Origin: Peptococcaceae bacterium CEB3
Lineage (GTDB): Bacteria > Bacillota > Desulfitobacteriia > Desulfitobacteriales > Desulfitobacteriaceae
DNA length: 64,000 nucleotides
Direction: 5' to 3'
Assembly: GCA_001029295.1 (NCBI GenBank)
Contig: LDXJ01000055.1
Span: forward strand, 1 to 64,000
Shown one piece after another: positions 22,750 through 58,787 of this stretch; the stretch's first letter is position 1, and each line of letters begins with the position of its first letter. The translations under genes and the position numbers were made by a program. The notes beneath the pieces were generated by a model. It worked only from the letters and a program-made list of their open reading frames with translations, did not search any database and was not told the DNA's origin.

Positions 22750-22878
22750 GGCCCGGGGCGGCGCTCAGGGAGGCCCGGTCCACAGATAAAGAAGAGTGGA
22801 AACAGTCTAAATATTAGCAGGAATTTGCCGGTGGTCGGCGAATTAAAATACTGAATCGGCAGATACAAAACCGGTCAA

Positions 22879-23250
22879 CTACCCCCACTTAACGCATTAA
22901 TCGGCGTTTGAAGTGGGGGCTTGGGGAAACGTGTAAGCCAGGCTTATACGCCCTCAAGCCCGGTTGATTAGCCTCAGTGGTCGGGATGTTTACCGAAAGG
23001 GGACAGCGAACCATTACGTTAAGCCGGAATAGATAGGCACCCTGGGATCCTCCACACGTCCCAGGCTCTGCGGTGAGTGTTTAAACATCTCTGATGGGTA
23101 GGAGAAGTGATGCTCACACACAAACCCGGCATTAACATTGGCAATGTGGACCCACGAGTTTTGGCAGTTCTCGGCTTAATGCACTAAAAACTGCTCCCTA
23201 TTTTGGGGTAGCAACCCGCATTCATCTCCGACTTTAGAAGTCGGAGCCTT
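22879..23250 (+). ncRNA. Large structured gene-free segment; candidate transposon-associated (omega/HEARO-like) RNA
   Basis: No ORF, but dense pairing: CCCCCACTT with AAGTGGGGG (one arm carrying ACGC/GCGT); GGGCTTG with CAAGCCC enclosing GTGTAAGCC / GGCTTATAC; a long-range GGGATGTTTA with TAAACATCTC; CCTGGGA / TCCCAGG; and a terminal CTCCGACTT-TAG-AAGTCGGAG hairpin (23226-23246). End hairpins of this sort resemble IS200/IS605-group element ends and their guide RNAs, but no TnpB or IscB frame is present. Strand is not certain; plus is assumed from the multi-stem layout. It could also be a solitary decayed element. Confidence 0.45.
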
Positions 23251-57217: not shown

Positions 57218-57622
57218 TCATGCACTAACCCAATTTTCGAGCCCAAGGCCCTCAATTCGCTCGAATTCACGGACATTATTAGTCACAATAATAAGTCCTT
57301 TAGCCTTCGCGTGTGCTGCAATCAGCATATCCATAGCTCCAATCGGAGTCCCTCGTCGCCGTAAGGTTGCGCAAATTTTCCCGTATTCGGCAGCCGCTTC
57401 ATCATCAAATGGCAAGATGTCCACAATGGACAAAAATTGATTTAGTGCAAGTGCGTTTTTCTGCGGGTATGCGCTTGCTTCCACACCATGTATGAGTTCT
57501 GCAAGAGTAATCGCAGAAATGGCAACGCTGTCGCCCATGTTCGAATGGAGATTTATTAGCACATTTTCTGGCTTTTTCTTTATGAGATACACACAAATAT
57601 TTGTATCCAGCATGTATTTCAT
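57218..57622 (-). CDS. vapC: VapC-type PIN-domain toxin
   Basis: 134 residues; a ribonuclease toxin acting on RNA (tRNA in known cases). The PIN acidic residues are visible: Asp in MLDTNI, Glu in [10 protein letters not shown], Asp in [11 protein letters not shown], and the TNN/REF motif. Its ATG overlaps the vapB stop (ATGA). It belongs to the tRNA(fMet)-cleaving-like VapC length class, but the target is not shown by sequence. Confidence 0.92.
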
Positions 57623-57849
57623 AACGTCTCCCTCGGCGTTTGAACACCCTGATTACGTCCGTCTGCAAAGAAATCCTCGGTAAAGCTGTTAAGACCGTTG
57701 AGAAAGGTTTCCCATGCAAGCTCTTTTGGAAACAACATAACAGCATTCCCCACTTTTTGAATATATACTTCGTTACCCAAAAAACGGCATTCTTTCGGCA
57801 AGCGGACAGCTTGGCTCTGACCATTAACAAATAATTTTGCAGTTTTCAT
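57619..57849 (-). CDS. vapB: VapB-type antitoxin, AbrB/SpoVT fold
   Basis: 76 residues. The N-terminal swapped-hairpin DNA-binding motif [30 protein letters not shown] is that of VapB (type with NGxSQAVRLP). The C-terminal half should wrap the toxin. GAGGTGATTAG lies upstream of the ATG. It is expected to repress its own promoter through the palindrome at 57867-57892. Confidence 0.92.
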
Positions 57850-57866
57850 TTCTAATCACCTCACTT

Positions 57867-57892
57867 ATAGTATATATGACAATATATACTAT
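57867..57892 (-). promoter_or_regulatory. vapBC operator/promoter
   Basis: A perfect 10-base inverted repeat (ATAGTATATA / TATATACTAT) around TGACAA. On the minus strand it overlaps a TTGACA (57893-57898) and a TATACT, so the operator covers the -10 region. Confidence 0.8.
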
Positions 57893-58019
57893 TGTCAAGG
57901 CTTTATTAATTTTAGTCTTCATAGTATGACTTCTAAGTCCCTGCAGGAGGCAGCTTGTCAGATCCAGGATTTGGTCCGTCTAGAAGAATTATTGAGGGCT
58001 CTCTATGTAGCCTCGGACT

Positions 58020-58217
58020 TTACCGAAGCCCAAGCCGCGGTGGAGAGGTTCTCCTCCATTCAGGAATAGAAGTATTGATTGACAAATTGAATTTGCTTTC
58101 GGTGTCCAGCAGTGCCCGTTCAAACCACTCTTCTTTGCTTTGTCCGGTTAGAGAACAGATGCGCTCAAAGCGTTCTCTACTCTGATCTGTCACCGGAAAC
58201 CAAACGATGTCGTCCAT
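58020..58217 (-). CDS. 65-residue ORF under a SAM-I riboswitch, unknown function
   Basis: ATG at 58217 with GAGGGTG about 6 bases upstream. The first 40 residues (DDIVWFPVTDQSRERFERICSLTGQSKEEWFERALLD) look like a folded helical protein; the tail (SIPEWRRTSPPRLGLR) looks less natural and may be read-through into old DNA. No methionine or SAM gene follows it: the next gene is vapB, 170 bases on, with its own promoter. It may be a true small protein or the stub of a lost gene. Confidence 0.45.
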   Translation of the reverse strand: MDDIVWFPVTDQSRERFERICSLTGQSKEEWFERALLDTESKFNLSINTSIPEWRRTSPPRLGLR

Positions 58218-58283
58218 TGAAAACACCCTCTTTCAAAGAAATACACTCGTGCGAAATATTGGTTACACTCTTGGGGACGCAAT

Positions 58284-58316
58284 AAAAACATCTCTCCCAA
58301 CGGAAGAGATGTTTTT
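58284..58316 (-). terminator. Regulated terminator of the orphan SAM-I riboswitch
   Basis: Minus strand AAAAACATCTCT pairs with AGAGATGTTTTT, loop TCCGTTGGG-type, ending in a T-run followed by ATTGC. It directly follows the aptamer. Confidence 0.85.
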
Positions 58317-58319
58317 CTG

Positions 58320-58419
58320 CTCTCATCTGTTAGGAACAAATCCTACAGGATTTGGCACCATGCTTTCAGCTGGTTGCCGGGCTTCATCGGGCCAGTCCCT
58401 CCGCCACTCTTGATAAGAG
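58320..58419 (-). ncRNA. SAM-I (S-box) riboswitch, orphan copy
   Basis: Minus strand: CTCTTATC, AAGAGTGGCGGAGGGA, CTGGCCCGATGAAGCCCGG, CAACC, GGTGCCAAATCC, P4 arm GGATTTG, then GATGAGAG, which pairs with the first block as P1. All S-box core elements are intact, and it has its own promoter (58452-58480) and terminator, so it should be functional. Confidence 0.95.
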
Positions 58420-58451
58420 ATTTATTCAGTTCTCGGTTGCTTTGTTGTTTC

Positions 58452-58480
58452 ATGATAATCGTGGCAAACGGTTTTGTCAA
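58452..58480 (-). promoter_or_regulatory. Promoter of the orphan SAM-I riboswitch
   Basis: Minus strand TTGACA (58475-58480), 17 bases, TATCAT (58452-58457); RNA start near 58445, about 25 bases before the aptamer. Confidence 0.75.
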
Positions 58481-58547: not shown

Positions 58548-58787
58548 CGTTCACTGAACTTGCTGAACCTTCAGGGTATCAAGCTGATTGGCAGTGGCAG
58601 GGCCGCGATTTTCGGTAATATGTCCCCGGTGTTCGGCATCCTTCTCAGCGGAGTGATTTTGGGGGAGCGTCTGGCCTGGTATCACTGGGTCGGTTTTACG
58701 CTGGTTTTGACCGGGGTTGTCTGTGCGGTGTCGAAAACGATCCCGACTTCTAAAATGAGGACAAAGGCAGGAACATCGGAGTTTTGA
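58548..58787 (+). pseudogene. C-terminal relic of an EamA/DMT-family permease
   Basis: The frame encodes the last two helices of an EamA transporter: GSGRAAIFGNMSPVFGILLSGVILGERL and YHWVGFTLVLTGVVCAV, then a short tail and TGA. Upstream sequence in frame is not transporter-like and there is no ribosome site at a sensible place, so the rest of the gene has been lost, probably in the rearrangement that left the riboswitch next to it. Confidence 0.7.

Follow-up and report, generated by a model that had tools for sequence, protein, structure and literature searches.

A SAM-I riboswitch ahead of a small, predicted ribbon-helix-helix protein in acidophilic sulfate reducers of the Desulfitobacteriaceae

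SAM-I riboswitches (S-boxes) are usually taken as flags for methionine genes. In the 64,000-nucleotide stretch of DNA from Peptococcaceae bacterium CEB3 that was analysed here (the window; contig LDXJ01000055.1), one such element is followed by an open reading frame (ORF) of 65 residues, for which Pfam and NCBIfam searches returned no family, and no methionine family in particular. The question is what this riboswitch controls. The original prediction, made from the sequence alone, offered two answers: either the ORF is a new small member of the methionine regulon, or a methionine gene was deleted and its riboswitch was left behind. The elements of the leader and the ORF are as follows.

58452-58480, minus strand: sigma-70-type promoter of the riboswitch transcript, TTGACA-17-TATCAT, 11/12 consensus
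58320-58419, minus strand: SAM-I (S-box) aptamer, Rfam RF00162, 91.6 bits against a gathering score of 44.4, E 1.4e-20, full model 1-108
58295-58336, minus strand: predicted antiterminator, 3' side of P1 TCCTAACAGATGAGAG with the terminator 5' arm and loop TCTCTTCCGTTGGGA, predicted -14.2 kcal/mol
58281-58316, minus strand: predicted intrinsic terminator, hairpin AAACATCTCTTCC-GTT-GGGAGAGATGTTTTT at 58284-58316, stem of 12-15 bp, 3-nt loop, T run
58224-58231, minus strand: ribosome-binding site AGAGGGTG, recognised from its sequence, 6 nt before the ATG
58020-58217, minus strand: 65-aa ORF for a small ribbon-helix-helix (RHH)-like protein, behind the S-box; assigned from orthologues in 3 other genomes, dN/dS and fold

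As listed above, the S-box is complete with promoter, aptamer and terminator, as had been proposed. Its aptamer, the logic of P1, antiterminator and terminator, and the promoter layout are standard for the transcription-terminating SAM-I class (RF00162); this class usually precedes methionine genes, whereas the window S-box precedes a small gene of no methionine family. The predicted terminator of the window leader folds once P1 is held closed, and it was not listed by a pattern scan because its T run belongs to the stem. Mutually exclusive terminator and antiterminator structures are predicted in all four leaders considered, namely those of the window and of three relatives that carry both switch and ORF. 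In two of these relatives, Desulfosporosinus acididurans M1 and Desulfosporosinus sp. FKB, the terminator sequence differs, but the antiterminator helix still forms through the changed pairs CTAACA/TGTTAG. The leader of the third, Acididesulfobacillus acetoxydans, has a TTGACA-17-TATGAT promoter at the equivalent position, and the AGAGGTG of the ribosome-binding site is preserved in all three. We predict that the window S-box acts by standard attenuation and is ON at low SAM. With SAM bound, the P1 helix would stay closed and the terminator would halt transcription; with SAM (methionine) scarce, the 3' side of P1 would pair with the 5' arm of the terminator, transcription would read on and the small protein would be made. 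As a separate observation, a MITE-like or IS-end element of ~170 nt (locus L103, 10531-10706) lies in D. acididurans between the S-box and its likely promoter (TTGACA-17-TAGTAT, ~10487 of the same locus), and a second copy of the element's end is found 550 bp upstream.

Searching related genomes for recurrence of the protein behind an S-box, the check put forward with the original prediction, yielded three further genomes, those of A. acetoxydans, D. acididurans M1 and strain FKB, and the ORF is the first gene behind the S-box each time. A single-protein query found nothing in the scan of named genomes; the three orthologues were recovered with a four-row alignment as query. All four close homologues, the window ORF included, lie directly 3' of an S-box and share the invariant start MDDI[IV]WFPVT. 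The four carrier aptamers are 91-97% identical and form one clade (support 0.95) among 18 S-boxes of the family, separate from the metN clade. Relatives of the ORF were found neither in viral contigs or plasmids, nor in other families of the class, nor in 398 genomes sampled across the phylum beyond the family. A PDB sequence search with the small protein returned chance matches only, and a PHROGs search returned nothing; sub-threshold family matches, including PG_1098_N and ILI bHLH, were dismissed as chance.

The surroundings of the pair differ among the carriers. In the window they comprise the following features.

57869-57898, minus strand: vapBC promoter, TTGACA-18-TATACT, 11/12, inside a near-palindrome
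57619-57849, minus strand: vapB antitoxin gene, a neighbour outside the switch unit (NF047862, 1.4e-34)
57218-57622, minus strand: vapC toxin gene of the tRNA(fMet) type, likewise a neighbour (NF047863, 1.2e-55)
57937-58069, plus strand: 3' relic of an Rpn-like (recombination-promoting nuclease/putative transposase) gene, overlapping the end of the 65-aa ORF; family name read from the sequence
58557-58787, plus strand: relic of an EamA/DMT permease gene, C-terminal half (Pfam EamA E 1.3e-11, profile positions 67-133 of 135 only)

The vapBC pair after the ORF and the permease relic upstream, both called in the original prediction, are confirmed by these matches. The EamA relic has two related loci in A. 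acetoxydans at 78%, and the Rpn-like relic has an intact counterpart of 399 codons on contig 50 of the window's own genome (L020, 3975-5174), whose 3' end it matches at 78% identity. The proposal that the locus is rearranged also holds: in the sister species A. acetoxydans, whose genome was the only other one of Acididesulfobacillus covered, ~320 bp of unrelated sequence separate the MFS and dinB genes that flank the locus in the window, and the S-box/ORF pair is found at another place. Over 370 bp, which take in the switch and the first part of the ORF, that place is 81% identical to the window; it is bordered by genes for a DedA-like membrane protein and an ABC transporter, and has neither vapBC nor the EamA relic. 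In D. acididurans M1 and FKB the pair occupies a third locus. It is thus found in two genera and at least three different surroundings, the known carriers being four, i.e. two pairs of close relatives. These differing flanks argue against chance read-through from a lost neighbour, and the best reading is that, in acidophilic sulfate reducers of the Desulfitobacteriaceae, switch and first gene move together from locus to locus.

The ORF itself evolves as a coding sequence under purifying selection. Residues 1-45 of the protein are conserved (MDDI[IV]WFPVT...W F..A...E); residues ~46-65, the C-terminal half, are unconserved, and the last ~10 codons overlap the antisense of the Rpn-like relic. 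Between the window and A. acetoxydans the dN/dS is ~0.12 over the first 43 codons, with 12, 5 and 16 differences at codon positions 1, 2 and 3, third positions being the richest. The two Desulfosporosinus copies give a dN/dS of 0.89, a figure underlain by very few changes, and the DNA identity of the ORF between genera is only 62-64%.

The description of the ORF as belonging to no known family stands insofar as Pfam and NCBIfam are concerned, but its 45 N-terminal residues have RHH features. In an AlphaFold2 monomer model built from a 13-row alignment, residues 1-10 are extended and helices span residues 11-24 and 28-49, with pLDDT >90 over residues 11-40. The beta-alpha-alpha topology with the RHH spacing of hydrophobic positions is present in the model, although DSSP assigned no strand in the monomer. 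Its structural neighbours are nearly all RHH proteins (TacA, MazE, PutA, NikR, CopG, MatP, AmrZ and omega), at modest scores (Foldseek E all >0.1; VIA-align Z <=5.9). The Pfam family NikA-like (PF21983), an RHH family, matches two S-box orthologues and one paralogue over the strand and helices with 15-22 bits against a cut-off of 27 (E 1.6e-4 for the paralogue, 1.3e-3 and 0.025 for the orthologues, all below the curated cut-off); the window protein itself matched neither this nor any other RHH profile. We predict from the model and these matches that the conserved first 45 residues form an RHH domain, and the protein is most likely a dimeric RHH protein. Pro8, kept in all 13 aligned members, takes the place of a residue whose side chain contacts DNA in most RHH proteins. 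DNA binding is therefore doubtful, and the domain may lack the conventional mode of DNA recognition. The proline at strand residue 8 also sets the protein apart from the NikA-like/MobC RHH proteins of plasmid relaxosomes, as does the absence of mobilisation genes nearby.

The N-terminal domain is shared by an unnamed family of 60-90-aa proteins in the Desulfitobacteriaceae (the 'MYIAFPADEKVKARLDAVCKSLNISLEEWFETALIESE' type), with 22-29% overall identity and profile E values of 1e-5 to 1e-8. These distant paralogues occur in many genomes of the family and are absent from other families of the class; no S-box precedes them at any paralogue locus tested. Several of their contexts were recorded. 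The only fusion seen has the domain as the N-terminus of a PAS-PAS histidine kinase (L046 from 1486, genome G043). One paralogue, common to both Acididesulfobacillus species, adjoins a tRNA gene (L019, 5280-5047; L048, 1632-1414) and, in the window's genome, has an integrase-like gene in its vicinity. Two Desulfosporosinus genomes carry a distant paralogue (MKVQYL[MV]IPVSDEK...) in divergent orientation ~260-530 bp from the S-box of a DUF39/NIL operon (L142, 3633-4190, G011; L143, 3878-4709, G033); by a rough estimate this proximity is unlikely to be chance across the family, and it possibly reflects one event.

Other S-boxes were considered locus by locus in the family members sampled; they precede metA, metY, hom, metNIQ or the DUF39/NIL/UPF0280 operon, which we take from its sequence to serve homocysteine synthesis. 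The window's genome has three, ahead of metA, metY and the 65-aa ORF. Just upstream of the metA S-box (22560-22455, minus strand), between divergent genes, a HEARO RNA was also noted (RF02033, 114.9 bits, 22874-23155, plus strand). MetI (metNIQ) is missing in all four carriers and in 15 of the 41 non-carriers, a distribution with a one-sided chance of ~0.03 by hand arithmetic uncorrected for relatedness; the anticorrelation between metNIQ and carriage of the switch and ORF is suggestive, not conclusive.

If the S-box were a deletion scar, it would once have led a methionine gene, now lost, and the ORF would be chance or decaying sequence. The visibly rearranged window locus, with its EamA and Rpn-like relics and vapBC, is consistent with such a history, as is the lack of metNIQ in every carrier, since a third S-box drives metNIQ in many relatives; an S-box without an obvious methionine gene does exist in another genome (L099 of G009). 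However, the same ORF recurs behind the same S-box across genera and surroundings and is under selection, the carrier aptamers are distinct from the metN clade, and a methionine gene behind the carrier-clade riboswitch was found in none of the four genomes. The two observations that would mark a scar, an ORF with no homologue anywhere and sister genomes with an intact methionine gene behind the same riboswitch, were accordingly both contradicted. The scar reading is already largely refuted, and we consider it very improbable. The term orphan, applied to the riboswitch earlier, is apt only in that no methionine gene follows. The S-box at L099 (G009:C37:43992-44092), which is of the hom type, has no recognisable methionine gene after it and is accompanied by a long perfect hairpin and foreign-looking ORFs, is a better candidate for a true deletion scar than that of the window. 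The switch could also be an operon leader whose true payload is the gene after the ORF, with the RHH protein as an autoregulator. The ORF of D. acididurans and FKB is followed, after ~65-90 nt that contain nothing resembling a terminator or a strong promoter, by an accessory peptide deformylase gene (def; Pfam 6e-46), which would act in formyl-methionine turnover. Members of the same def clade occur in other Desulfosporosinus genomes as well, in four of them with a small HTH regulator where the ORF would be, and in others with neither. This reading needs the payload to have been lost in Acididesulfobacillus, both species of which keep switch and ORF without def, and def is present in relatives without an S-box. 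The common denominator, and hence the conserved unit, is the switch with the small ORF, and we regard the operon-leader reading as unlikely.

Two further readings would take the ORF out of the centre. The Listeria leaders SreA and SreB act in trans as small RNAs, and the terminated S-box leader might likewise be a trans-acting small RNA with the ORF as an accessory. Between genera, identity is higher in the aptamer (91-97%) than in the DNA of the ORF (62-64%), but high aptamer conservation is expected of any S-box, and the coding signal and ribosome-binding site of the ORF would need another explanation; an RNA product seems to us even a little less probable than a scar. Least credible of all is control of vapBC by the riboswitch, which would couple cleavage of tRNA(fMet) to the SAM level. 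It draws on the position of vapBC, which follows on the same strand after 170 nt that hold no clear terminator, and on the tRNA(fMet)-specific type of its VapC. Yet an 11/12 promoter of its own, set in a near-palindromic operator, serves vapBC, and the gene pair is missing at the corresponding locus of A. acetoxydans and behind both Desulfosporosinus S-boxes. That a tRNA(fMet)-cleaving VapBC in the window and a peptide deformylase in Desulfosporosinus both touch formyl-methionine beside the switch is probably a coincidence.

We therefore return to the small ORF as the conserved target of a functional SAM-I riboswitch, a reading that we consider likely. The orthologues behind the same S-box in three genomes and two genera, together with purifying selection, support the proposal that the ORF belongs to the methionine regulon as a new small member, and we infer for it the role of a regulator. 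Its product, a small RHH protein induced at low SAM, would adjust gene expression or protein activity under methionine limitation, its role and targets being suppositions of ours. MetJ, the SAM-dependent ribbon-helix-helix repressor of enterobacteria, offers a parallel, in that a small RHH-type protein is linked to the SAM or methionine state. The parallel is limited: the synthesis of the S-box protein would be governed by SAM through RNA, the protein has only 65-79 residues, no sequence similarity to MetJ was found, and we claim no SAM site. It is conceivable, though we would not expect it, that the switch and the protein form a relay, in which low SAM would raise the small RHH protein and this would in turn act on further genes in trans. 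Such a relay would amount to a two-step SAM response combining an RNA sensor with a MetJ-like fold in acidophiles of a Gram-positive lineage.

No paper on S-boxes with RHH proteins or with peptide deformylase came up in a literature search, nor did related searches turn up anything about the small gene; the A. acetoxydans papers say nothing of riboswitches or methionine in their main texts. Across two genera and several loci, the first gene behind an S-box encodes a conserved small protein, which suggests that the methionine response of sulfate reducers of acid mine drainage has a component so far overlooked. It also draws attention to a nameless family of small proteins with many copies in the Desulfitobacteriaceae.
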